Assembly (NCBI RefSeq): GCF_001988955.1
Contig: NZ_CP014263.1
Location: 1,302,001-1,366,000 of the forward strand
From: Spirosoma montaniterrae
Lineage (GTDB): Bacteria; Bacteroidota; Bacteroidia; Cytophagales; Spirosomataceae
Length of the DNA stretch: 64,000 nucleotides
Direction: 5' to 3'
Below are positions 43,061-54,483 of the stretch, in pieces; position 1 is the stretch's first letter; every line of letters starts with the position of its first letter. A program made the position numbers and the translations under genes. The notes beneath the pieces were generated by a model. It had not been told where the DNA came from. It saw only the letters and a program-made list of their open reading frames with translations, and ran no database searches.

Positions 43061-43108
43061 ATCCCCCTTTTATGGGATGGTTGGTTGAAGCTGTGGATTA
43101 TACTTTTG
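43061..43108 (+). promoter_or_regulatory. Regulon site 1 (operator plus -7 box) of the subtilisin-like operon
   Basis: ATCCCCCTTTTATGGGAT (43061-43078) is the best copy of the repeated 18-bp element, with ATCCC/GGGAT arms around 8 bp. After 22 bp comes TACTTTTG (43101-43108), matching TAnnTTTG. The gene starts at 43131. The site centre would lie about 45 bp upstream of transcription, a usual activator position. Confidence 0.75.
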
Positions 43109-43130
43109 TACAGATAAATGCCAAAACGCT

Positions 43131-44453
43131 ATGACTACGATTAAGCAGGGAAACTATGTACTATTCGAAGATATCGAATCTGTCAAAGAATTATACCGCG
43201 CTGGCGAAGCAAGTGCCTACAATAAGGCTCAATTGGGCCAATTGTTAGGCGAAGAACCTGTTGCTGCTACAAGTACTGCCTATATGCATTGGGCATTTGA
43301 AGACCGGGCTGTAGAAATAGAAAAGTTGGATCAGGAAGATAGGTACTACTTCCTTCGATTATTTTATTTGAAAGAAGATAAAACCGCACGTATCTATCAA
43401 CTTGTCAATGAGCAAAGTATGCGCATTAGGTACGGTTTATCTGGAAACGGTAGGAATGGCTGGATGATACGTTGGGAGCGGCTTAAACCCGATTTGCTTC
43501 AATTTAGACGGGAACGATTCCAAATTGAACGAGATCAAATAAGTCACGTTCATCCCCGCCCCTTGCTTTCTCAAATTCATCTGCAAGAGATGCTGAGACC
43601 GATTGCGATAAAACCCGAAGTTCAGCAACTTGTGCACCTTACAAGCACTTCAGGGTTTGATCTTGAAGATGAGTCAAATCAGTCGGCTGATGCGGCATTT
43701 CGTCTTTTAGACAATTTACGAGAAGACCATGTAAGTGAACACGGGCGAGATGCAATGCAAGTAGCGCGTTGGACCATGAATCTTGATTCGCAGGTTCAAT
43801 GCCACTTTTGTAGTACACAATATCCGAGGTATGAAGAAATGGTAGATAGAGATCCATTTGGAATAAAGACCAGATTTAATTATGCTTTCAGTAGCCAGAG
43901 AGTATTGAACCTAACCGAAGGGGATGTGCTGTTTATAACAACATCATTTAAGCAAGGCAATACGTATTGTACAGCATTGTTCGATCTGGCAGTGTTTCAT
44001 ATTACGCGATGGCTGGAAGAGAAAGGCGTCATTGTTTTATTCTCGGCTGGGGGAGGTAGATCAGGAGAGGGATTTGTATCTTATGAAGAGCTATTTCAGG
44101 AACTGACGGTCGCTTATAATGCAACAAATTGGCCGGGTATTGTTGTGGGTGGTATCAATCCAAACGCCCTGTGTATTGAGAGTAATTATGCATCGATAGT
44201 GACATGTTATGCTCCACCCCACGAAAAAAAACCGGATTTTGATGAATCATCGGGAGCTACCTCAGTTATAGCCGGTCTGGTAGTGCGAGCGCAACAGTAC
44301 GCTCAAACAACGGGCCGTCAGTATTTGAAACCTGCCGAAATAAAAAATCTGCTTAAGACCTGTGGGCGCAGGCTAACTGTTCAACCCGTGGGCGACATTT
44401 GTCTGCCCGATTGGGAGTCAATCAAAGCGGGCATTGCGGAATTATTGCCCTAA
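43131..44453 (+). CDS. Divergent intracellular subtilisin-like (S8-type) protein
   Basis: 440 residues, no signal peptide. The first 165 residues are unrecognised and charged. The second half follows subtilases: a possible H204 in SEHGRDAMQVA, the strand VIVLFSAGGG (300-309; the oxyanion Asn of AAGN is Gly here), PGIVVGGINPNALCIESNYASIVTCYAPP like the usual VGA..FSNYG..VDVAAPG, and S374 in ESSGATSVIAGLVVRAQQY matching GTSxATPxVAG, then LKPAEIKNLL. The catalytic Asp motif is not clear (STSGFDLED is a candidate), so activity is doubtful. It heads an operon of unknown genes with a regulon site. Confidence 0.7.
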   Translation: MTTIKQGNYVLFEDIESVKELYRAGEASAYNKAQLGQLLGEEPVAATSTAYMHWAFEDRAVEIEKLDQEDRYYFLRLFYLKEDKTARIYQLVNEQSMRIRYGLSGNGRNGWMIRWERLKPDLLQFRRERFQIERDQISHVHPRPLLSQIHLQEMLRPIAIKPEVQQLVHLTSTSGFDLEDESNQSADAAFRLLDNLREDHVSEHGRDAMQVARWTMNLDSQVQCHFCSTQYPRYEEMVDRDPFGIKTRFNYAFSSQRVLNLTEGDVLFITTSFKQGNTYCTALFDLAVFHITRWLEEKGVIVLFSAGGGRSGEGFVSYEELFQELTVAYNATNWPGIVVGGINPNALCIESNYASIVTCYAPPHEKKPDFDESSGATSVIAGLVVRAQQYAQTTGRQYLKPAEIKNLLKTCGRRLTVQPVGDICLPDWESIKAGIAELLP

Positions 44454-44486
44454 CACAATTCATTACAATTTTTCAACCACACAATT

Positions 44487-45302
44487 ATGCGACAAAGCGA
44501 AGCTGCATCTCTTCGGGAAGCCTTTAGTTTCTTTACGAACTACGAGGGTCATCCAAATCAGGACGTCTCTTACGCCGACAAAATGAAGAACCTGGCAACA
44601 GGGCCTAACCGCTTGTACGACTTCTTTGCGTTTCTGCGCTACTTCGTGCGCCGATCTCGGAAAGAACTGGCAATCACCGATTGTGAACACCTTCCCAAGG
44701 TGCTCACATTAACGGTTAGCAAAGGGAATGTCTTGCAAACGCTTGCTTATTTCGACAATGCTAAATGCCTGAATATAAAAATCTGCTTCGGGATGGATGA
44801 ATGTCTGATACCGCAATTGGTGGTGTCGGGTTCGTTCTGCTGCGATGACCAGGGACCTTCGGTGGACTTAGTGGATCAACCCTACCGCAAGCAAACTGAA
44901 GATGGGCAGGCTGGACATTATGTACTGAATTTCGGCGACGAAATAAGTGTTGACGAAGCTCGTACATTGCTAAATCGATTTGAGGAGATTGTAACACGCG
45001 ATTTGTCTGACCCTGTTGATCTACGGGGATATGCACTCGACATAAAAACGTTTCGCCATTTGCTTAGTGACGATGTGTATTTAGGGCAGGCCGAAGAGAT
45101 ACGTATTCGCATGGGCATGAATAACGACGGCTTTGACGACTCCATTCCTAACTCAGGTAGTGTTCGTATCATGATGCTTGAGTTCTCTGATGTGAATGAA
45201 GACGTGGGTACGCCGTTTTATATGTGCAGCGGACGCGTGAAGGACGATTCTGACCCAACGGAGTGCCCACCGCGCCAACCGTGCAACGCCACCATCAGCT
45301 AA
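44487..45302 (+). CDS. Unrecognised 271-residue protein in the subtilisin-like operon
   Basis: No signal peptide or membrane segment is visible and no family is recognised. The N-terminus (LREAFSFFTNYEGHPNQDVSYADKMKNLATGPNRLYDFFAFLRYFVRRSRKEL, in blocks) is helical and conserved-looking; the middle alternates b-strands (LTLTVSKGNVLQTLAYF, NIKICFGMD) with several Cys; the end is polar (VKDDSDPTECPPRQPCNATIS). It lies 33 bp after the subtilisin-like gene and 11 bp before the membrane protein, so all are likely co-expressed. An interaction with the subtilisin-like protein is inference from position only. Confidence 0.6.
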   Translation: MRQSEAASLREAFSFFTNYEGHPNQDVSYADKMKNLATGPNRLYDFFAFLRYFVRRSRKELAITDCEHLPKVLTLTVSKGNVLQTLAYFDNAKCLNIKICFGMDECLIPQLVVSGSFCCDDQGPSVDLVDQPYRKQTEDGQAGHYVLNFGDEISVDEARTLLNRFEEIVTRDLSDPVDLRGYALDIKTFRHLLSDDVYLGQAEEIRIRMGMNNDGFDDSIPNSGSVRIMMLEFSDVNEDVGTPFYMCSGRVKDDSDPTECPPRQPCNATIS

Positions 45303-45313
45303 CGAATAAGACT

Positions 45314-45952
45314 GTGTCAATATATGACATTCTTGATTGGCTTTGGTATGGATTTACAGCGGTGGTTCTGGTGCCAATCGTAGCAGGACTCTTACACTGG
45401 CGTTTGTTAAACAAGTCAGAAAGAAGCCTTGTCTGGTTTCTGATAGCTATGTTAATGCTTGAAGTAGTTGCTACTACTTTACGCTTCAATGCAATCAGAA
45501 ACCATTTTATACATTATTTCCAGACATCATCTGTGCTATGGATTGGCACCCACTTTTATACAGAACGAATTGGCTGGGGAAATTGGCCGATGATAATAGC
45601 GGTTGTTGTTGCGATTACTATACCAGTAGAAGTTTTCGGCTGGGTAGGTTTTAATCATATTAACACTGCTACTGAAACAGTAGCCTGGCTGCTGATTGCG
45701 CTATATGCATTCGTCAGTCTTGTACATGTACTAGAACAACCGCTTGATCGTTCTATTCGCCGTGATGGGATGGTGTACCATCATGCTGGCTTTTTATTGA
45801 TAGGTTTCTTCAAAGCAGGAAGAGCCTGTTTTTTAAACTACTTCATTGAGACGTCTGTTGATTTATACTTTTTCATAGACACGTTGGTCGTTATAATTGG
45901 CGCAGTAGTGTATGGGCTGTTCACAATAGGGTTTACGCTTAAAGAACGATAA
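45314..45952 (+). CDS. Multi-pass membrane protein (about 7 helices), function unknown
   Basis: 213 residues from GTG 45314; a GTG at 45263 would overlap the previous gene by 40 bp. Hydrophobic stretches, roughly WYGFTAVVLVPIVAGLL, LVWFLIAMLMLEVVATT, SSVLWIGTHFY, WPMIIAVVVAITIPVEVFGW, VAWLLIALYAFVSLVHVL, HHAGFLLIGFFKAG and LYFFIDTLVVIIGAVVYGLF, give six to seven helices without an enzymatic motif. It sits 10 bp before the histidine kinase at 45963 and could be its sensory partner, in analogy with 7TM-linked sensors. That is inference. Confidence 0.6.
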   Translation: MSIYDILDWLWYGFTAVVLVPIVAGLLHWRLLNKSERSLVWFLIAMLMLEVVATTLRFNAIRNHFIHYFQTSSVLWIGTHFYTERIGWGNWPMIIAVVVAITIPVEVFGWVGFNHINTATETVAWLLIALYAFVSLVHVLEQPLDRSIRRDGMVYHHAGFLLIGFFKAGRACFLNYFIETSVDLYFFIDTLVVIIGAVVYGLFTIGFTLKER

Positions 45953-45962
45953 ACCTACGGAT

Positions 45963-47072
45963 ATGACACGCTGGGTATTTTGGCTAACTGGACTAATTTT
46001 TACCTGTGAGCAGCCTTACGTTCAGGCGCAAATCATCTTGATTACTAAGGTTGAAACAATCCAGCGGCCTTACACAGAGCAATTGCCATTTCGCTTTCAT
46101 CAGGGAGATTCGATAATACATGTGAGTTACCGGAATAATAATGTACTTGTTCATTTTGATTCATCAATCCCCAATACTGCGTTCAAATACAACATAAAGG
46201 CATTATTGCCACGCTCTGTCATCACCCGTGATACGTTTATTGTACTGCCTGACTTGCCGAATGGTGAACTGGTGCTTGAAATCTCTGACGCTCAACGCAC
46301 TTACGTCAAACCTGCCCGCCTAAAGATCGTAGTTGAATCACCGCTCTGGCTACGCTGGTGGTTTCTTCCGATGATGTTTCTGTACGGACTTGTTTTCGTA
46401 AGTGCCTGTCTGTATCTGCTCTACCGCTACCGTATCCGCCAGTTCTTGCGTCTGCAACACACCCGCGACCGGATTGCCCGCGATTTGCACGACGATATGG
46501 GCAGCTACCTTAGCAGCATCAGCATTCTGAGCCAGACGGCCCAGCGGTCGGCCCTGAAAGACCCCGCCAAAACCCAGGCCACCCTCGAACGCATCGGCCA
46601 AACGGCCCGGCAGGTCATGGACTCGATGGGCGATATTGTCTGGAGCATCAACCCCACTCACGACAGCATGACCAATGTAGCCGCCCGCATGACCGACGTG
46701 GCTGCCAGCCTGTTCACCGACCAGCCTGTTGACTGGCACGTGGTTGTCGATGATGACGTAAAACGGCTTAGTTTGTCGGCGGAACACCGGCGCGATTTTT
46801 TTCTGATTTACAAAGAAGCCATTACCAACGTGGCCCGCTACGCCGAAGCGCATCAGGTGACGGTGCGGCTGCAACGGCAGACAGGCGATCTGGTACTGAC
46901 CGTGCAGGACGACGGACGGGGCTTCAACACCGAACAGCCAGTCAAACGCAATTCAACTGGCGGCAATGGCTTGCGAAACATGCAAAACCGGGCTGTGCTG
47001 CTGGGGGGTACGCTGACGGTAGAATCGGTAGAGAGAAAAGGTACATTAATCAGATTACAGTTTCCGATCTGA
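45963..47072 (+). CDS. NarL-type sensor histidine kinase with Y_Y_Y-like sensor end
   Basis: 369 residues. A signal-like N-terminus (WVFWLTGLIF, QAQ) leads to a periplasmic region of about 105 residues whose end (NGELVLEISDAQRTYVKPARLKIVVE) resembles the Y_Y_Y domain of hybrid sensors, but without b-propellers. One membrane helix (FLPMMFLYGLVFVSACLYLL) precedes the HisKA_3 site IARDLHDDMGSYLSSISILSQ (H176) and HATPase motifs NVARYAEA and VQDDGRGF, NGLRNMQNRA. It is related to the kinase at 48493-49932 and close to the response regulator at 47196, so the three form one signalling set. Confidence 0.88.
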   Translation: MTRWVFWLTGLIFTCEQPYVQAQIILITKVETIQRPYTEQLPFRFHQGDSIIHVSYRNNNVLVHFDSSIPNTAFKYNIKALLPRSVITRDTFIVLPDLPNGELVLEISDAQRTYVKPARLKIVVESPLWLRWWFLPMMFLYGLVFVSACLYLLYRYRIRQFLRLQHTRDRIARDLHDDMGSYLSSISILSQTAQRSALKDPAKTQATLERIGQTARQVMDSMGDIVWSINPTHDSMTNVAARMTDVAASLFTDQPVDWHVVVDDDVKRLSLSAEHRRDFFLIYKEAITNVARYAEAHQVTVRLQRQTGDLVLTVQDDGRGFNTEQPVKRNSTGGNGLRNMQNRAVLLGGTLTVESVERKGTLIRLQFPI

Positions 47073-47097
47073 TTAATACGTCAATCTGAAAACAAAT

Positions 47098-47146
47098 ATC
47101 CCCCTTTTATGGGATAGATGGTAACACGCCGTACTGCTTACCTTTG
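47098..47146 (+). promoter_or_regulatory. Regulon site 2 upstream of the response regulator
   Basis: ATCCCCCTTTTATGGGAT (47098-47115) is identical to sites 1 and 4. After 23 bp (one more than the others) comes TACCTTTG (47139-47146), an exact TAnnTTTG. The regulator gene starts at 47196. Autoregulation is implied if the regulator binds this element. Confidence 0.75.
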
Positions 47147-47195
47147 CTTATAGGCCGAAGGCTTTGTTCAATTCCAACTTTATCGATCCGAAGTT

Positions 47196-47819
47196 ATGGC
47201 CGTTCGCGTTCTGCTTTACGAAGACAATGCCCCGTTGCGCGAGGCTCTCAGCACCCTTATAGCTGATACCGAAGGCTTCTCGCTGGTGGGTGCCTTCGGC
47301 GATTGCCTGCGGGCCAACGACCAGACCTACCAACTCCAGCCCGACGTGGTGCTGATGGACATTGACCTACCCGGTCGGGATGGCATTCAGGCCGTGCAGG
47401 CGTTACATCGCGAGTTCCCGTCGGTCGATGTGCTGATGCTCACTGTTTTTGACGACGACGACCGCGTGTTTCGGGCACTTTGCGCAGGAGCATCGGGCTA
47501 CCTGCTCAAACAAATCCCGCCCGATCAGTTGATAGACGCTATTCAGTCAGTTTATGCGGGGGGCGCGCCTATGTCGCCCAGCATTGCCCGCAAGGTTATC
47601 CGCACGTTTCCGGCTCAGGCGGGGCAGTCGGCCAATCTCGACCAGCTTACGGGCCGCGAAAGTCAGGTGCTGCATTACCTGGCGCAGGGCATGAGTTATA
47701 AGCTCGTAGCCGCCGAACTCGGTATCGGCATCGAAACCGTCCGAACGCATATCAAGCGGATTTACGAAAAACTGCACGTGCATTCGGTGACGGAGGCTAT
47801 CGCCAAGTATCGGCCATAA
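47196..47819 (+). CDS. NarL/LuxR-family response regulator
   Basis: 207 residues. The receiver domain (1-120) has acidic E9/D10 and phospho-acceptor D55 in VVLMDIDLPGRDG, with the Thr and Lys switch residues (LTVF, YLLKQ). The C-terminal LuxR HTH is LTGRESQVLHYLAQGMSYKLVAAELGIGIETVRTHIKRIYEKL. Such regulators bind short inverted repeats as dimers. It is the only response regulator between the two NarL-type kinases and carries regulon site 2 in its own promoter, so it is the likely binder of the 18-bp element. A terminator follows. Confidence 0.92.
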   Translation: MAVRVLLYEDNAPLREALSTLIADTEGFSLVGAFGDCLRANDQTYQLQPDVVLMDIDLPGRDGIQAVQALHREFPSVDVLMLTVFDDDDRVFRALCAGASGYLLKQIPPDQLIDAIQSVYAGGAPMSPSIARKVIRTFPAQAGQSANLDQLTGRESQVLHYLAQGMSYKLVAAELGIGIETVRTHIKRIYEKLHVHSVTEAIAKYRP

Positions 47820-47851
47820 AACCCGAACCAAACATGGGGCAGAGGCATAGC

Positions 47852-47888
47852 AGGGTCAGATTCGCACGAATCTGACCCTATTGTTTTT
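47852..47888 (+). terminator. Intrinsic terminator after the response regulator
   Basis: AGGGTCAGATTCG (47852-47864) pairs perfectly with CGAATCTGACCCT (47867-47879) and is followed by ATTGTTTTTAG. Confidence 0.85.
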
Positions 47889-47915
47889 AGCGGAAATCTG
47901 CCAGACCGTTACAGT

Positions 47916-47963
47916 GTCCCATGATTATGGGAGAGCGTAGCATTCGGGCCGTGGCGAACTTTG
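47916..47963 (+). promoter_or_regulatory. Regulon site 3 upstream of a small exported protein
   Basis: GTCCCATGATTATGGGAG (47916-47933) keeps the TCCC/GGGA arms and the TTATGGGA half. After 22 bp comes GAACTTTG (47956-47963), a -7-like box with the TTTG conserved. The gene starts at 48026. Confidence 0.65.
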
Positions 47964-48025
47964 ACGAGTCAGTCAGGCTAATCACCTACGCAAACCCAAT
48001 ACCAAACAATTTCTTGCTACCATTT

Positions 48026-48406
48026 ATGAAAACGCTTCTGCTTTTAGTGAGCCTGCTTACAGGCTACGTGCTTAACACCCACACCGCCGACTATTCCGGC
48101 AACTGGTACAGCCGCTCCAACGGCATAACCATGCAGTTGCAACAGCACGGCACCGTTCTGTCGTGCCACTTCCGCACCGCAGACTATACCCATGAGGCCG
48201 AAGGGCCGGTTTGGGTCAACGCCAGTGGTCGGCAAGTTGGCCGATGGCTTGTCAAACGCACCGCTCCCGATGGCTGTATCACCTTTATCGATTGTCGGAT
48301 CACGTTTCTGAGCGATACGCAAATGCAGATTTCGGCCTCGGCTGTCGATACGAATTGTGACTTGCCAGCCACCTGGCGCGAAACTATTATTTATGAGCGG
48401 CAATAA
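48026..48406 (+). CDS. Small exported protein with lipocalin-like b-strand pattern
   Basis: 126 residues from ATG 48026. A signal peptide (MKTLLLLVSLLTGYVLNTHTA) precedes a mature part of alternating strands: YSGNWYSRSNGITMQLQQHG, VLSCHFRTADYTHEAEG, RQVGRWLVKRTAPDGCITFIDCRITF, with four Cys that could form disulfides. The GNWY opening and size recall lipocalin-like Bacteroidota domains, as does the protein at 56003. No function is claimed. Control by regulon site 3 is inferred from position. A long hairpin follows its stop. Confidence 0.65.
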   Translation: MKTLLLLVSLLTGYVLNTHTADYSGNWYSRSNGITMQLQQHGTVLSCHFRTADYTHEAEGPVWVNASGRQVGRWLVKRTAPDGCITFIDCRITFLSDTQMQISASAVDTNCDLPATWRETIIYERQ

Positions 48407-48412
48407 ATCTTT

Positions 48413-48487
48413 TTCAACGCATACCAAATGAAACCGTTTATGGCACCTTGCTGACGCTATAAACGATTTCATTTGGTATGCGTTGAA
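48413..48487. repeat. 31-bp inverted repeat between convergent genes
   Basis: Arms 48413-48443 and 48457-48487 pair with two mismatches; the arms begin TTCAACGCATACCAAATGAAA. The apex reads TTGCTGACGC at 48448-48457, resembling the apex of other hairpins. It sits 6 bp from each flanking stop codon. Confidence 0.85.
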
Positions 48488-48492
48488 CAACA

Positions 48493-49932
48493 CTATACGA
48501 CAACTGCAATCGGCGGGGCTTTGGAAGGGTGTACAGATTGGTTCACGGGCAGATTTGCACCTACACAAGCCGCCCAAACTACCTCAACATACGTGCCCTG
48601 GCCGGGTTCTGATTCGATGTGCAGCGTGGCACCCAGCCGCTCGGCCCGAAGGCGCAAATTGCTCAGACCCAAGCCGCTGCTCGGGCGGTCAGAGTCGAAA
48701 CCGCGTCCGTTGTCCTGAATGCGGAGTACCAGGCCGGTGGGTTCGCGTTTCAGGCTAATCCAGACGGTTTGGGCGTTGGCGTGGCGCAGGATATTGGTCA
48801 GGCATTCTTTGGCAATCAAAAACAACTCGCGTCGATGCCGGTGGCTGAGATTGAGCGGCTGCTCGTCGGCGGTAAGGCTGACGTGCAGCCGCACGGGGCT
48901 ATCCTCGAAGAGGATGGTGGCTGTTTCGCGGATGCGCTGGCCCACGTCCTGCAACGAATCGCTGGCCGAGTTGAGGCTCCAGACAATCTCGCGCATCGAA
49001 TCCATCACCTGCCGGGCCGTTTGCCCAATAATAACCAGCCGGTGGCGGGCGCGTTCGTCGTCAACATAGCGGGTGGTAGTCTGGCTCAGAATGCTGATGC
49101 TGCTCAGTTGCGATCCCATCTCGTCGTGCAGGTCGCGGGCAATTTCGTCGCGCAGGTTGTTGAGCCGGGCTTGCTTGGCTTCGTTCTCGCGCAGTTGCTC
49201 AATCAGTTGGGCCTGATACTGAATTTTCTCGCGCTCGGTTTGGCGGTTCAGAAATGAGATGGCTATGGTAAACAGGAGCGACTCGATAATGATGCCCAAC
49301 TGCATGACAGTCAGTGGATAACTAAACGGTTGTTCGGGGATACGCGCTGCAAAGCCAAACAGATTCAGCGTAACGGCCAGAATGGAACCGCCCACAAAAA
49401 AGGCGGTTCCGGCAATAAAAAACGACGAAACCACATCGCGCAGCCGCAGCATACGGGGCACAATCATAAACGTTAACCCCGCCATGACGTAGCGATTCAG
49501 GTCGGTCAGTAGACTACGCCATTCGGTGACTACTGCCGATGAACCCAGCCACAAGCCCCCCGAGTCGATGAGTTGCCCGGTGGCCAGCACGAAGAGCATG
49601 TAATTGGTGAGCCGGAAACTGAACGGGTCGCGTCGGCGCAGGTTGAGCAGCGTACGGGCAAAGTGAATATAAAAGATGAAGGCAACGGTTTGTATCGAAA
49701 CCTCCAGCCACTGCGCCAGTGCTACTGCCGATTCTGGCGCGTGCTGATCCTGTAGTTGATGGGCTTTATCGTTGAAATACAGGTTGGCAATCATGCCCAG
49801 CAGGTAGAGGCCGTACCAGGCGTAGAGTAGCTTGTGGTGCCAGATGAACGTAGCAAAAGCGTACAGGGTCATCATCAGCAGCATACCATCGAGAAACAGC
49901 CGCAGCGTGGGGTAAGTGATATGGAGCAGCAT
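48493..49932 (-). CDS. Membrane-bound NarL-type sensor histidine kinase (7TM-type sensor)
   Basis: 479 residues from ATG 49932; an upstream in-frame start at 50007 lies close to the next promoter. The first 230 residues form seven hydrophobic helices (LRLFLDGMLLMMTLYAFATFIW to LGIIIESLLFTIAISFLN), like the 7TMR-DISM sensor class. A coiled-coil segment (ERE...IEQLRENEAKQARL) leads to HisKA_3 with EIARDLHDEMGSQLSSISILSQ (H269), and HATPase motifs ILRHANA, IQDNGRGF and GLGLSNLRLRAE. The transmitter core is highly similar to that at 45963, implying a common response regulator. Confidence 0.87.
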   Translation of the reverse strand: MLLHITYPTLRLFLDGMLLMMTLYAFATFIWHHKLLYAWYGLYLLGMIANLYFNDKAHQLQDQHAPESAVALAQWLEVSIQTVAFIFYIHFARTLLNLRRRDPFSFRLTNYMLFVLATGQLIDSGGLWLGSSAVVTEWRSLLTDLNRYVMAGLTFMIVPRMLRLRDVVSSFFIAGTAFFVGGSILAVTLNLFGFAARIPEQPFSYPLTVMQLGIIIESLLFTIAISFLNRQTEREKIQYQAQLIEQLRENEAKQARLNNLRDEIARDLHDEMGSQLSSISILSQTTTRYVDDERARHRLVIIGQTARQVMDSMREIVWSLNSASDSLQDVGQRIRETATILFEDSPVRLHVSLTADEQPLNLSHRHRRELFLIAKECLTNILRHANAQTVWISLKREPTGLVLRIQDNGRGFDSDRPSSGLGLSNLRLRAERLGATLHIESEPGQGTYVEVVWAACVGANLPVNQSVHPSKAPPIAVVV

Positions 49933-50013
49933 AATTGAGTGGGGATAGTTTGCTATTAGTCGAAAGGTAGTACCACAAGGCAAACACGAATTATACAAAT
50001 GTGACATTCGGTT

Positions 50014-50061
50014 ATCCCCCTTTTATGGGATTTCGGCGCAGATAGCCGTTCCCGAAGTTTG
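50014..50061 (+). promoter_or_regulatory. Regulon site 4 upstream of the 331-residue secreted protein
   Basis: ATCCCCCTTTTATGGGAT (50014-50031) is followed after 22 bp by GAAGTTTG (50054-50061). The secreted-protein gene starts at 50098. The same region is the promoter side of the divergent kinase, but no -7 box with the right spacing is seen in that direction. Confidence 0.72.
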
Positions 50062-50097
50062 TAGCAACCAATCCGGCTTTCGGCTTCTATCTCTACC

Positions 50098-51093
50098 ATG
50101 AAAACGTTATTGCAGACAATCTGCCTTGTTGTTGCGACGCTAACAATCTCGCTGGCGCAACGACTCAATCAGCCCTACCTGCTGATTCAGCTTACCACCG
50201 GGGGCGACGACCTGCGGGGCGGTCAATCGGTAAAAGCCAGTGTTTATTTTCACAATCGGGCCAGTATGGCTGGCCTTGATCTGAACGAAGGCGAAGGCTG
50301 GGCCAATAATACGACCCATACCTATCAGATTGAAGCCTATGACTTCAAACCCAGCGATTTGCGGGCTATTACCCTATTTCACGATGGGCATCCGACGCAG
50401 ACGTTTCAGAGTTACGACAACTGGAATCTCGACCGGATACGGGTCACATTCGTCAGCCCCGGCAAGCAGCCCCGCAACACGATATTGCTGAACCGGTCGG
50501 GACAACCCCTGATGCGCTTCACGGGCAACGAAGATGCACAAAGCTGGACATTTGATGCGGTAACAGATCCCGTTAGTCCCGGCCAGGCAGACGCGGGTGC
50601 CAGTAGCGGGTATCCGGCTGGCAGAACCGAACGGGTGCGAGTTGTGCGCTGGATTTCGCCCGCTACGAAAGATTTTGAGTCGATGCCCGAAGGTCGCCAC
50701 ACTGACCAGCAACTGCAAAGCTGGGGTTATACCGATAAGCTCTACCAGTATTCGGCCTACCGCAACCGTCCCAGCGGCCCCAATGCTGTTGCCGTCTATC
50801 GCTGGACGATGCCCAATTGCGCGGGCAGTATCCTGTTTGGTGAACACGAACTGACGGATGCCCAACTGCAAAGCTGGGGGTACAAAGACAAAGAATTTCA
50901 GTTCTGGGCCTTCCGGCAACCGCCCAGCGACGGACGCCGGTACGTAGCCGTGTATCGCTGGATTAACGCCCACCCCCAGGGCGACCCCTGCCGCGATTTC
51001 ACGCTCACCGTTGCCGAAACCGAGCTGACCGATGCCCAACTTACCAGTTGGGGCTATACCGAAAAACGGCTACAGTTTTACGCGCTGCCGTGA
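50098..51093 (+). CDS. Secreted protein with triplicated EL/QLxSWGY repeats
   Basis: 331 residues. The signal peptide ends SLAQ. Residues 22-150 are b-rich (QPYLLIQLTTGGDDLRGGQSVKASVYFH) and may form a PLAT/C2-like module. The C-terminal half has three copies of a repeat: HTDQQLQSWGYTDKLYQYSAYR, HELTDAQLQSWGYKDKEFQFWAFR and ETELTDAQLTSWGYTEKRLQFYAL, with VAVYRW linkers, similar to the DUF5648-type surface repeat. No enzyme motif. It heads a four-gene run under regulon site 4. Confidence 0.7.
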   Translation: MKTLLQTICLVVATLTISLAQRLNQPYLLIQLTTGGDDLRGGQSVKASVYFHNRASMAGLDLNEGEGWANNTTHTYQIEAYDFKPSDLRAITLFHDGHPTQTFQSYDNWNLDRIRVTFVSPGKQPRNTILLNRSGQPLMRFTGNEDAQSWTFDAVTDPVSPGQADAGASSGYPAGRTERVRVVRWISPATKDFESMPEGRHTDQQLQSWGYTDKLYQYSAYRNRPSGPNAVAVYRWTMPNCAGSILFGEHELTDAQLQSWGYKDKEFQFWAFRQPPSDGRRYVAVYRWINAHPQGDPCRDFTLTVAETELTDAQLTSWGYTEKRLQFYALP

Positions 51094-51197
51094 CGGGGGA
51101 AGCGCGCGCGAGGTGCATCGTGTATAACCATTTAAAAGAAGTGTTTTGCCGAGTTAGTAGTGCTAAACAGTATTCACACCAAAAACTTACCAAAACA

Positions 51198-51725
51198 ATG
51201 GCTGTTGCAAAAACCAATGAGTGGGAAGTGTTAATGATTGGCTGTCAGGCTGCCGGGGCCGCACCTGCTGCTGCTTTGGCGCGGTATATGCCCCTTCTGG
51301 AGAAGGCAAGGGATGCCTTAAATCTGCATGAACTACTTATGCCAGGCCCGGCTGTCGATTTTCAGCTCTGTAACTTTCGGCGCAGAGATGAAGGCTATCG
51401 TGGTATTTCACGAATGTTTGTTTTTGCCGGCGTAGGCATTGGCATTGGTATGGGGGCTAATGGTTCGGCCAACTATACCGATCTCAGACCTTTCATACAG
51501 CGTCCATTTAATTCCGACGATTTAAACTACTCCATGGGAGCGATGGCAAATGCTGGTATTGGGTATGTGGCTGGAGGAAGTTTATCCTCTATATGGGCTT
51601 GGAATACCGGAGGAAACTTATTTGGTACAGGTCTTAACAGGCAACAGGCAACGGGAGCCAATGGCGACGTAATAGTAGGGGCACAGGCAACAGCAACCAT
51701 TGGTATCTGGATAAAAGTATCCTGA
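51198..51725 (+). CDS. Glycine-rich unknown protein with VGIGIG segment
   Basis: 175 residues from ATG 51198. There is no signal peptide at the start; residues 85-110 are a glycine-rich hydrophobic stretch (MFVFAGVGIGIGMGANGS), and later YVAGGSLSSIWAW and VIVGAQATATIGIWIKV are similar. The C-terminal half alternates in a b-barrel-like way. The VGIGIG element is echoed in the protein at 52727. No family recognised. It lies 104 bp after the secreted-protein gene and is likely in the same transcript. Confidence 0.55.
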   Translation: MAVAKTNEWEVLMIGCQAAGAAPAAALARYMPLLEKARDALNLHELLMPGPAVDFQLCNFRRRDEGYRGISRMFVFAGVGIGIGMGANGSANYTDLRPFIQRPFNSDDLNYSMGAMANAGIGYVAGGSLSSIWAWNTGGNLFGTGLNRQQATGANGDVIVGAQATATIGIWIKVS

Positions 51726-51764
51726 TTTCCAAACCGTTTTCGCACTTTCCGCTGTGCACCCCCC

Positions 51765-52226
51765 ATGCCCGCCTACACAACGCCCCTGCCGCAAACTGTA
51801 CTCTGGCGCGACCTCGACACGCTGGCCGACGAGCAGGCCGTGCTGGCCCTCTTCCGCGAGCCGCAACACCGCTATGCCGTAGAAACCAACCCGCCTGCGT
51901 TTCAGATTCAAAAGGCAAGGCCGCTCAAGTTCGAGACTATTTACTGGACTGTAGCAACGGGCCGCATCCGAAGCGAAGCCGGGCAAACGCAGGTCGAACT
52001 GCGTGTGGGCTTCACCAGCGAAGCCCACACGCGGAATTGGGTGGGAGCGGTGTTTCTGCTGGTGTGGCCCCCGCTCTGGGCTATGTTCCTGATGCCCAAC
52101 GCCTGGGTGTGTGCGTTGCCCGTCACAGTGGTTCTTGGCAGTATCGTAGCCGCAACCATCTACTGGCCCGTTTGGCGATTTCGTCAGTTTTTGCGGGAGC
52201 GGTGGCAATTAACGCTTACGAAATAA
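51765..52226 (+). CDS. Small two-helix membrane protein, unknown function
   Basis: 153 residues from ATG 51765. An N-terminal soluble part (residues 1-85, with YAVETNPPAFQIQ and RIRSEAGQTQVELRVGF) is followed by two hydrophobic helices (WVGAVFLLVWPPLWAMFLM and WVCALPVTVVLGSIVAATIYW) and a short basic tail. No enzymatic motif or known family. It is 39 bp downstream of the glycine-rich gene and 42 bp upstream of the next gene, consistent with one operon. Confidence 0.55.
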   Translation: MPAYTTPLPQTVLWRDLDTLADEQAVLALFREPQHRYAVETNPPAFQIQKARPLKFETIYWTVATGRIRSEAGQTQVELRVGFTSEAHTRNWVGAVFLLVWPPLWAMFLMPNAWVCALPVTVVLGSIVAATIYWPVWRFRQFLRERWQLTLTK

Positions 52227-52268
52227 CAGCGATAACTACATCGCGTACTCATTCATCCAATAAATTCT

Positions 52269-52700
52269 ATGAATTTATACAGACCTTCCCGCCAGTTACT
52301 GCCCGTCGATAACGCTGTTGCTCAGCAGATTAATACCCTGATAGCCGATGCGAGTCGGGGGTATGGGGGCCGGGTTGCCCGTCTCGAAGTACTGCGTACA
52401 GCCTGGTCTGTAGCCGTGCAATACCGGGAGCGAACAGGAGCTAACGACGTGGTCTCGGTCTGCACGGAGCATTATTTATATGCCCGCTATAGAAGTGCCG
52501 AGGGGGCGTATGGTGAGTTTGAGCAATCTGTGCTGATTTTTGTTTACCCGTTTTATAAAACGGCTATGCCCGTATATGCGGGCCAGCGTCCTCCCTCGCT
52601 CTATGATTTTTTACATAGTTACTGGGAGTTAAAGGGCGTTCGGGCCGGACACGACGACCGAGCGCATTCGCTGGAGCCAATAGCCCGGATCACACCCTGA
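52269..52700 (+). CDS. Unrecognised 143-residue protein
   Basis: The protein is soluble and basic, with a helical N-terminal half (AVAQQINTLIADASRGYGGRVARLEVLRTAWSVAVQYRERTG, in blocks) and a more aromatic second half (YLYARYRSAEGAYGEF, VLIFVYPFYKTAMPVY). No signal peptide or motif is recognised. It is the last gene of the run starting at 50098 and converges on the gene at 52727, only 26 bp away. No function is assigned. Confidence 0.5.
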   Translation: MNLYRPSRQLLPVDNAVAQQINTLIADASRGYGGRVARLEVLRTAWSVAVQYRERTGANDVVSVCTEHYLYARYRSAEGAYGEFEQSVLIFVYPFYKTAMPVYAGQRPPSLYDFLHSYWELKGVRAGHDDRAHSLEPIARITP

Positions 52701-52726
52701 AAACCTATCCTACCGCCTGAGGGCAA

Positions 52727-53668
52727 TTAATCATAGCCCATCTCAACGGCCAGGCCCGGATTGTTATCTAAAAATCGGGCGATGCGCCGGGCCAGTTCTT
52801 CGCGGTCGATGTGAATCGTGTTGGCTCCGCCACGAGAGCCTCGTTGCCGAAGTTGCCGCTGAATGTCGGCGTCGTGGCGGAAATAGTTGTGAATAATATG
52901 GGTCCGTAAGTCGCGCCCTTCGTGGTCAATAACCGACCGCATCCGGTCGGCGGCATTGATACCAGCAATGTAGCGATTACGGTCGCGTTCTTCCATCAGG
53001 GAAGCGGATTGCCTGACGTCCATGAACAGCGACTGAACGTATCCCCGCGCAAACCAGAGGTTGCCGTATTCGGGCAGCGGGTCGGTAATTACTTTCCAGA
53101 TGCCAATCATACCCGTTACGCCGGTGGTAAACGAAACGCCGGAATCGAACGAACCCGTCGCAAAAAACCACCGGTTTAATTGAAAGGCACAAACACCGTC
53201 GCCACTGACCGACGCGCCCACGCCGGCTTCTATTTTGCCGAACCCCCCCTGTGCCATGTTCAAATCGCGGGCACTAAACGCCTGATGACAGGTTAGGCGG
53301 GTGCCTCCGCCCGGAGTGAGGGCCGACGTGGCATCAGAAAATCGGGATGCGTCGCCGGTGCGCTGTTCAATCCGTCTACCAAGTCGTTCGGCAGCGTGGG
53401 AAAGTTGCGACCGCTGCCGGTTGGCTGCTTCCAGTGCACTACCTTTTAACCCAAAGGCCCGGCCCTGTGCGCTCGCCGAGAATATACCGGCTGAAACCCC
53501 AATGCCTACTCCAATGAAAAGAGCTGTGAGCGGACTTTCGCCTGTGAAACCAGCCCCGTTGCTTGTAAAATCAAACTGATATACACCAGCCTGAACAAAC
53601 TCGCCAAGCTGCAACGACCTTCCCTTGCTAATCTTCCAATCGGTACAAGGTTGCCAAAACGCGCCCAT
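52727..53668 (-). CDS. Unknown protein with glycine-rich membrane-like segment, regulon member
   Basis: 313 residues from ATG 53668. Start is uncertain: the frame is open to 53779 but that would include the -7 box. Residues about 40-65 have LTALFIGVGIGVSAGIFSASA, echoing the VGIGIG of the 51198 protein, and residues 150-190 alternate as b-strands (GFGKIEAGVGASVSGDGVCAF). The C-terminal 110 residues are helical, with NRYIAGINAADRMRSVIDHEGRDLRTHIIHNYFRHDADIQRQLRQRG in blocks. No family recognised. Regulon site 5 lies upstream in the correct orientation. Confidence 0.55.
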   Translation of the reverse strand: MGAFWQPCTDWKISKGRSLQLGEFVQAGVYQFDFTSNGAGFTGESPLTALFIGVGIGVSAGIFSASAQGRAFGLKGSALEAANRQRSQLSHAAERLGRRIEQRTGDASRFSDATSALTPGGGTRLTCHQAFSARDLNMAQGGFGKIEAGVGASVSGDGVCAFQLNRWFFATGSFDSGVSFTTGVTGMIGIWKVITDPLPEYGNLWFARGYVQSLFMDVRQSASLMEERDRNRYIAGINAADRMRSVIDHEGRDLRTHIIHNYFRHDADIQRQLRQRGSRGGANTIHIDREELARRIARFLDNNPGLAVEMGYD

Positions 53669-53764
53669 AGTAAGCAGGATAAACCACGTATCGCGGCAGT
53701 ACAAATGTTTGGTTCTTCTCTTCCCGGTTTTGCCAAACAGTCGCAAACGACCGAAGAGGTTAGG

Positions 53765-53812
53765 CAAAGTAATACACAATTCCCCCCGAAGACTATCCCA
53801 TAAAAAGGGGAT
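53765..53812 (-). promoter_or_regulatory. Regulon site 5 (reverse strand) for the gene at 52727
   Basis: Read on the reverse strand, ATCCCCTTTTTATGGGAT (53812 to 53795) is followed after 22 bp by TTACTTTG (53772 to 53765), keeping the TTTG. The inferred leader to ATG 53668 is about 90 nt, longer than at the other sites. Confidence 0.65.
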
Positions 53813-53817
53813 AGGGT

Positions 53818-53865
53818 ATCACCCGTTCATGGGATTTCAGGCTGCACCGCAGCCGCCGACTTTTG
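53818..53865 (+). promoter_or_regulatory. Regulon site 6 for the exported barrel-like gene
   Basis: ATCACCCGTTCATGGGAT (53818-53835), 5 bp from site 5 and facing the other way, is followed after 22 bp by GACTTTTG (53858-53865). The gene starts at 53888. Sites 5 and 6 make this a divergent control region. Confidence 0.7.
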
Positions 53866-53887
53866 AGCCAGCTAAACCACCTTAATC

Positions 53888-54394
53888 ATGAAAACTTCTG
53901 GCTTACTTCTCGCTTTTGTACTGTTCTTCACTACGACCCAGGCGCAGGAACTGCCCCACCGGATGCGCGTGGGCCTGTCACTGGATTTGGTCGGCAATAC
54001 GCTCGGCATCGGTACGCAATTGCACGGCTCCTTCCGCTTTTCCGACGATTACCGGGCTTTCGACGACGTGCATCATTACGTCAATGCCGGCATAGGCGTT
54101 GGAGCCTCTTTTTCGAGTGGGGTTTCAATAGGAGCCACCGTACCGCATTATTTGACGGTTGGCATTGGGCGTGGGCGAGCTATGTGGGAGTTTGGGCTGG
54201 CAGGTGTCAGACGCGAACATATGATTTTCGATTCGTATACCGACCCGCAAACCGGGCAACGACTGCGCGACCGGCGCACCGAATGGCGGTATTTGCTGCT
54301 GCCTTTAGTGGGCTACCGCTACACGGCCTACAGCGGGTTTATGTTCCGCATCAACGGGCCGGTGCCGGGTATCGCCTTCGGCTGGATGTTTTGA
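53888..54394 (+). CDS. Exported b-barrel-like protein, regulon member
   Basis: 168 residues. The signal peptide (SGLLLAFVLFFTTTQAQ) is followed by alternating strands: MRVGLSLDLVGNTLGIGTQLHG, YVNAGIGVGASFSSGVSIG, HYLTVGIGRGRAMWEFGLAGV and YLLLPLVGYRYTAYSGFMFRI, ending in an aromatic (WMF) as in outer-membrane barrels. It is a small barrel of unknown role. Its promoter has regulon site 6, and site 7 for the next gene begins 41 bp after its stop. Confidence 0.7.
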   Translation: MKTSGLLLAFVLFFTTTQAQELPHRMRVGLSLDLVGNTLGIGTQLHGSFRFSDDYRAFDDVHHYVNAGIGVGASFSSGVSIGATVPHYLTVGIGRGRAMWEFGLAGVRREHMIFDSYTDPQTGQRLRDRRTEWRYLLLPLVGYRYTAYSGFMFRINGPVPGIAFGWMF

Positions 54395-54435
54395 TCGGCA
54401 ATTGGCCCGACCCGTTTGAGCGAACGGTCAACGCT

Positions 54436-54483
54436 GTCACCCTTTTATGGGATTTCGGCCCGTGTGCCGCGTGGCGACCTTTG
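54436..54483 (+). promoter_or_regulatory. Regulon site 7 for the lipoprotein operon
   Basis: GTCACCCTTTTATGGGAT (54436-54453) is followed after 22 bp by GACCTTTG (54476-54483), with TTTCGGC directly after the element as at site 4 and GAGCCAG after the box as at site 6. The operon starts at ATG 54543. Confidence 0.72.

Follow-up and report, generated by a model that had tools for sequence, protein, structure and literature searches.

In Spirosoma montaniterrae, a locus with a NarL/FixJ-type response regulator, two histidine kinases and several exported-protein and lipoprotein genes contains seven copies of an 18-bp element, each followed at 22 or 23 bp by a box resembling the -7 box of Bacteroidota promoters. 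The locus lies at positions 43061 to 54483 of the stretch of DNA analysed (64,000 nucleotides, here called the window). Based on comparisons with related genomes and on two further copies at a type VI secretion system (T6SS), we consider it likely that the sites are operators of the regulator encoded at 47196, through which it would activate its own gene, the kinase operon and the T6SS. Sites and genes of the locus are given in window numbering, those of the T6SS and other genome sites in contig numbering of the S. montaniterrae genome (5.80 Mb, single contig). The locus comprises:

43061..43108, plus strand: site ATCCCCCTTTTATGGGAT, 22 bp and box TACTTTTG; putative promoter of the subtilisin-like/kinase operon, predicted +1 at 43113
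43131..44453, plus strand: degenerate subtilisin-like protein by predicted fold, 440 aa; heads the kinase operon
44487..45302, plus strand: 271-aa protein; its family is rare, with 5 clusters in the protein database when its own is counted
45314..45952, plus strand: membrane protein 5' of the kinase, with an assumed GTG start; the scan began at 45320
45963..47072, plus strand: histidine kinase, HisKA_3 and HATPase_c (Pfam)
47098..47146, plus strand: site, 23 bp and box TACCTTTG; predicted autoregulatory promoter of the response regulator
47196..47819, plus strand: NarL/FixJ-type response regulator, receiver and GerE (Pfam, orthologues); putative binder of all sites
47916..47963, plus strand: site GTCCCATGATTATGGGAG, 22 bp and box GAACTTTG; precedes a small exported protein (48026-48406)
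48493..50007, minus strand: second histidine kinase, 7TMR-DISM and HisKA_3; no site of its own, homologues adjoin the regulator in many relatives
50014..50061, plus strand: site, 22 bp and box GAAGTTTG; precedes an exported repeat protein (50098-51093)
53765..53812, minus strand: site (53795-53812, reverse), 22 bp and box TTACTTTG; precedes the gene at 52727-53668 (minus strand)
53818..53865, plus strand: site ATCACCCGTTCATGGGAT, 22 bp and box GACTTTTG; precedes an exported protein (53888-54394)
54436..54483, plus strand: site GTCACCCTTTTATGGGAT, 22 bp and box GACCTTTG; precedes a Kelch-type lipoprotein gene (54543) and those following it

The element and its spacing to the -7-like box

The initial annotation had placed copies of the element at 43061, 47098, 47916, 50014, 53795 (reverse), 53818 and 54436, and all seven were found there. 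Their alignment gives the 18-bp form RTCMCM-N5-ATGGGAK; the consensus originally proposed, RTCMCCC-N5-ATGGGAK, is 19 letters long and has no match even at two mismatches. The ATGGGA(T/G) arm is invariant across the window copies, with the left arm about equally conserved. The element was also described as inverted, and a dyad ATCCC-N8-GGGAT is indeed present, but it is imperfect, with 6 to 14 of the 18 positions self-complementary among the seven copies. The gap of 22 or 23 bp to an 8-bp box was recovered: measured from the end of the site, TTTG begins 26 bp on in six copies and 27 bp on in that at 47098. TTTG at this distance is common to all seven, but the proposed box type nAnnTTTG does not extend to the reverse copy at 53795, which is followed by TTACTTTG. 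The complete TAnnTTTG is found in only two of the seven window boxes, the first base being G in four and the A being replaced by T in one.

No sequence similarity links the 22-bp gaps, which average a pairwise identity of 0.28 over eight own sites (27-28% identical); the idea of copied promoters was therefore rejected. Among the 26 positions 3' of the site, the A of the box alone exceeds 55% for any single base; since the gap, the box aside, shows no conserved column, a -33 element seems to be absent. If the box is placed at -12 to -5, as reported for the flavobacterial sigma-A -7 box TAnnTTTG (PMC9723704), the site centre falls at -43.5 (-44.5 for 47098). Leaders of 18 to 58 nt would separate the predicted starts of the six forward sites from the assigned ATG codons.

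The genome scan that had been suggested as a check returned 10 exact copies in 5.8 Mb, seven of them in the window and there within 11.4 kb, i.e., clustered beyond chance. TTTG is found at 26/27 in 8 of the 10, and the two copies without a box, one inside a coding frame (1764428) and one without a downstream gene on its strand (5406883), look accidental. With a relaxed composite pattern of site and box, 10 matches were obtained in the genome vs 0 in the control, namely the seven window sites, two T6SS sites and one in a coding frame at 2490424. The spacing is also kept in relatives: among the distinct exact sites in 52 fetched loci, TTTG or TTTA lies at 25-27 in 46 of 47 (exactly 26 in 32), the single miss being the reverse reading of a near-palindrome, although the fairest overall figure is 46/49, because nine of these loci were chosen via a match to the composite pattern and the two boxless own-genome copies are outside the set.

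The response regulator and its co-variation with the element

The product of 47196 combines a receiver domain (PF00072, E 1.2e-23) with a GerE domain (PF00196, E 1.2e-16), the arrangement of NarL/FixJ (LuxR-type) regulators, and its best solved full-length relatives are VraR, NarL, ChrA, DesR and DevR. A PDV-LMDIDLPG-type block around the phospho-acceptor Asp is present in all 14 aligned regulators. Inverted-repeat operators are usual in this family.

Site and regulator occur together across genomes. Among 99 relatives, the strict site with its box was detected in 10, precisely those with the best orthologue of 47196 (E <= 8.4e-85), and in 0/99 for controls. Within 222 family genomes, the strict pattern was found in 15 (reversed control 0/222) and the regulator (E <= 1e-70) in 21, including 14 of these 15; in the fifteenth, G255, the site stands before a regulator gene of which the contig end leaves only the beginning (79% identity, residues 1-105). 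The regulator-bearing genomes without a strict match (G032, G016, G144, G146, G050, G225 and G236) each have a relaxed-form site at the regulator, except G144, in which it is at the operon head.

The position of the sites further points to autoregulation. Of 23 orthologues, 21 have a site with up to three mismatches and a box within the 170 bp upstream of the regulator, vs 23 of 2188 random windows from the same loci, using a criterion that was loosened after the sequences had been seen and applied alike to both sets. A wider set was formed from 54 of 80 regulator loci by removing six training genomes; the 26 loci left out (L235, L260, L263 and L266-L288) are mostly the least similar. Among the 48 resulting loci, which reach down to ~44% identity and include nine genomes already counted in the comparisons above, 20 score at least 17 in the 200 bp upstream, vs 2 of 926 control windows.

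The recognition helix varies together with the operator arms. Most orthologues near GGGAT sites have the helix ETVRTHIKRIYEKL or a close variant. In the sites beside the three regulators with the helix IDTVRTHIRRIYEKL (those of G032 and G016 and, in G027, the second one), one arm or, in some, both read ATCGC or GCGAT; in most of these sites, TTTG or TTTA lies at the unchanged distance. A Saprospiraceae homologue with D and R in the helix (L259) is accompanied by ATGCGAT, and G027 holds both regulator types, each beside its own version of the motif (L100, L116). This suggests that, in a few regulators, an altered recognition helix parallels altered operator arms, and the two regulators of G027 seem to keep separate specificities. 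Considering the co-occurrence in 15 of 15 strict-pattern genomes, the placement before the regulator gene and the co-variation of helix and arms, there is strong comparative evidence for a link between site and regulator, supporting the initial proposal that the 47196 product is the probable binder.

Two further arrangements were observed among the relatives. At locus L177 (G204), a more distant regulator (67%) lies amid four sites of the form CCCC-N6-GGGG, the distance to TTTG being almost unchanged. In the draft genome G002 (L111, L112), a site lies downstream of one regulator, and a different contig carries a site before an apparently broken or truncated second regulator.

Sites at the type VI secretion system

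Outside the window, two sites with a box precede T6SS operons, 2.2 Mb from the regulator locus:

contig 3520987-3521034, minus strand: site 3521017, GTCCCCCGAATATGGGAT, 22 bp and box CAATTTTG, exact copy; precedes the tssB operon
contig 3527496-3527543, minus strand: site 3527526, one mismatch, box GTCTTTTA; precedes the clpV operon

A TssB-like gene of 149 aa (its TssB match is under the cut-off in Pfam and NCBIfam) starts 147 bp after site 3521017 and is followed by TssC (PF17541, E 2e-208), TssD/Hcp (PF17642), a 214-aa gene and VgrG. The second operon encodes a DUF7452 protein, a 270-aa product, a caspase-domain (C14) protein and a ClpV-type ATPase, and genes for gp25-like, TssG and TssN (PF17555, E 1.3e-37) proteins are found farther along. 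Of the membrane complex TssN-Q-O-P-R, TssN alone was recognized by Pfam in a scan covering part of the locus genes. By its PF17541 TssC and PF17555 TssN, the system is assigned to the Bacteroidota-type T6SSiii. Because an exact copy precedes the tssB-tssC-hcp-vgrG operon with the same spacing and a one-mismatch copy precedes the clpV operon, the regulon comprises, by site placement, the window locus plus the T6SSiii, with nine own promoters.

A comparison of 26 T6SS loci from 23 genomes (matrix score of at least 13) is in line with this placement. For own-type clpV loci (at least 74% identity), the site was found in 5 of 5 from regulator-bearing genomes, i.e., our own, G029 (Spirosoma terrae) and the Fibrella species G042, G206 and G207, vs 0 of 2 from regulator-less genomes (G006, G017) despite a TssC 90-91% identical to the own one, a small contrast (Fisher p 0.048) with a ClpV cut-off that was set post hoc. 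The site precedes a 134-aa gene beside tssB in G029 and clpV in the Fibrella genomes. None of the 19 other T6SS loci has the site; their TssC is at most 60% identical, six have no ClpV match in the stretch and two are on contigs of ~4 kb. An alternative dyad with a box was not found before tssB or clpV in the two regulator-less loci, by a criterion that also misses the own tssB site. Further hints of a link between the regulator locus and the T6SS come from TssD/Hcp homologues in the same-strand run after the last site of the regulator locus in G027, G004 and G020 (PF17642, E 7e-27 for one tested), and from a DUF7452 protein at the regulator locus of G236 that shares 58% identity with its counterpart in the own T6SS operon, with no site scored directly 5' of it.

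Both own T6SS operons have a 12-mer, CCGTTCGCTCAA, 3' of their predicted start (3520962-3520973 and 3527461-3527472, minus strand). It or near variants occur 5' of tssB or clpV in G029, G006 and G017 (L148, L155, L156), with the regulator present or absent, and it has six exact copies in the genome vs 0 in the control, at least one of the other four being in a coding frame. This 12-mer might serve the T6SS as a second control element. The caspase-domain protein of the site-headed clpV operon (L042:11547-12662) has related proteins in the T6SS loci of G029, G017 and G006. A defence-system reading was dropped, as PADLOC yielded only weak or generic regulator matches plus one caspase match.

Proposed mechanism, alternatives and significance

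In the scheme we propose, one or both of the neighbouring HisKA_3 kinases would phosphorylate the regulator, a dimer of which, as strong comparative evidence suggests, would occupy the 18-bp dyad ATCCC-N8-GGGAT. Bound at about -52 to -35, with its centre at -43.5, the regulator could contact RNA polymerase and activate a predicted promoter of the Bacteroidota sigma-A type, with a -7-like box and no conserved -33 element. The initial annotation had described a site for an activator immediately 5' of the promoter. At a class II-type promoter, the operator would be centred near -41 to -44; the class II-like position seen here fits activation, which is itself deduced from this geometry. Judging by site placement, local targets would be the regulator's own gene, the operon ending in its kinase and several exported-protein and lipoprotein genes, and remote targets the tssB-tssC-hcp-vgrG and DUF7452-caspase-clpV operons of the T6SSiii. 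Such a circuit would act as a self-reinforcing switch, producing the secretion machine together with a set of surface proteins.

The same geometry could be read as repression, with the regulator bound at -52 to -35 blocking the polymerase until the kinase signal relieves it. The position adjoins the place of a would-be -33 element, and geometry alone does not give the sign of regulation. We nevertheless regard repression as unlikely, as a conserved -33 element seems to be absent, as expected of activator-dependent promoters, and the rigid phasing to the box would fit polymerase contact better than simple blocking. An alternative (extracytoplasmic function, ECF) sigma-factor promoter, of which the element would form the upstream half instead of being a regulator operator, is much less probable still. 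The arm that is invariant in the window and the fixed distance to a start-proximal box are what one would expect of such a promoter, but a 22-bp gap is long for an ECF promoter pair, the left arm is about as conserved as the right, and either arm, in some sites both, is changed in the altered-helix clade. Moreover, the presence of the element tracks the regulator gene in 15 of 15 genomes, and the box resembles the sigma-A -7 box TAnnTTTG (PMC9723704).

That another DNA-binding protein travelling with the locus binds the sites, the regulator being a mere co-regulated target, seems equally far-fetched. A site before a gene marks that gene as a target, not its product as the binder, and placement before 47196 would be compatible with this idea. 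On the other hand, among the 19 window proteins scanned with Pfam, the regulator alone has a DNA-binding family above the cut-off; it is constant across genomes when the neighbours other than the kinases vary, and its helix co-varies with the arms.

Apart from the reduced spacing figure and the small T6SS contrast given above, several results weigh against the proposed scheme or, in the case of the first, against the element as such. The bare 18-mer is not enriched, with 70 matches vs 108 in shuffles for the window (up to three mismatches) and 29 vs 31 control matches for the genome (up to one mismatch), and at up to two mismatches it was discarded as noise (425 vs 658 in the reversed control); the signal is carried by the exact site and the box together, not by the loosened 18-mer. 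The orthologues of G002 and G144 have no site directly before the regulator, and 28 of the 48 further regulator loci score under 17. Within the altered-helix clade, ATCCC or GGGAT persists on one side of several sites, and other arms accompany several D-with-K homologues; since G002 has E with R in the helix yet keeps GGGAT, no one-residue rule applies. Two of the T6SS sites have weak boxes (GTCTTTTA, GTTTTTTG). Sorted by TssC (at least 86%), the T6SS contrast becomes 4/4 vs 0/2, and G206 (TssC 52%) is then an other-type locus with a site. Regulator-bearing genomes account for twelve of the 19 other T6SS loci, and none of these twelve has the site, which argues that T6SS control is lineage-specific. 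The presence of a T6SS is not enriched with the strict pattern within the genus (8/9 vs 22/27) and was dropped as uninformative.

The gene order of the locus is conserved in most relatives: a glycosyl hydrolase 16 gene, a site, variable first genes, the membrane protein, the HisKA_3 kinase, a site, the regulator, the second kinase on the opposite strand, a site and exported-protein or lipoprotein genes. The variable first genes are often the subtilisin-like protein and its partner, and the exported genes also vary among genomes. A degenerate subtilisin-like protein heads the kinase operon in several genomes (window 43131-44453; L104:17480-18994) and other genes do so elsewhere, as if the sensor input were modular. 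The window protein has no Pfam family above the cut-off; its predicted C-terminal fold matches subtilisin-like proteases (best E 2.7e-5), a modest match (TM 0.35-0.39 by query length, mean pLDDT 58.6) that is confident only in parts of the C-terminal 280 residues. In an alignment of six homologues read by eye, the His and Ser positions are invariant, and because the usual Asp and oxyanion Asn are absent, it is probably not an ordinary protease. No known domain was found in the 271-aa protein (Pfam, NCBIfam), the structure model of which was unusable (pLDDT 44.7), no confident family for the membrane protein (Pfam, NCBIfam), and nothing useful from NCBIfam for the exported proteins scanned. More speculatively, and as a minority view, the locus might be a dedicated T6SS arming switch, in which the pseudo-subtilisin, the 271-aa partner and the membrane protein would form an unusual sensor feeding the kinase, positive feedback would make the response all-or-none, and the fast-changing exported proteins encoded between the sites would be T6SS-associated cargo or co-deployed surface factors.

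Compared with other NarL/FixJ systems, this one would combine the operator ATCCC-N8-GGGAT with a Bacteroidota -7 box at a gap of 22 bp. We know of no described operator of this kind, and none was found in a literature search of titles and abstract beginnings. Two-component control of T6SS operons is known from Proteobacteria, in which the response regulators RcsB and ChvI switch them on (PMC10482370), and from VxrB in Vibrio (PMC4441509). A similar role is proposed here from site placement, in a different phylum, promoter type and T6SS class; the accessible text of the review has no word beginning with 'bacteroid' (PMC10482370). The T6SSiii was already known in Spirosoma (PMC10781749), and the own locus resembles it in its TssB-like, TssC, TssD/Hcp, VgrG, gp25-like, TssG, TssN and ClpV-type ATPase genes; our finding concerns transcriptional control, which the available parts of that work do not treat. 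The same kind of search, in which subscription journals were mostly outside the scope so that it is not proof of absence, found no transcriptional regulator of a Bacteroidota T6SS.

Judging by this literature, how Bacteroidota decide to build a T6SS has been little described. The current analysis contributes a candidate regulator with its putative operator and nine own promoters, together with naturally occurring helix and operator variants. Added to these are a Bacteroidota promoter of predicted rigid activator spacing and a pair of regulators within one genome that are seemingly separate in specificity.

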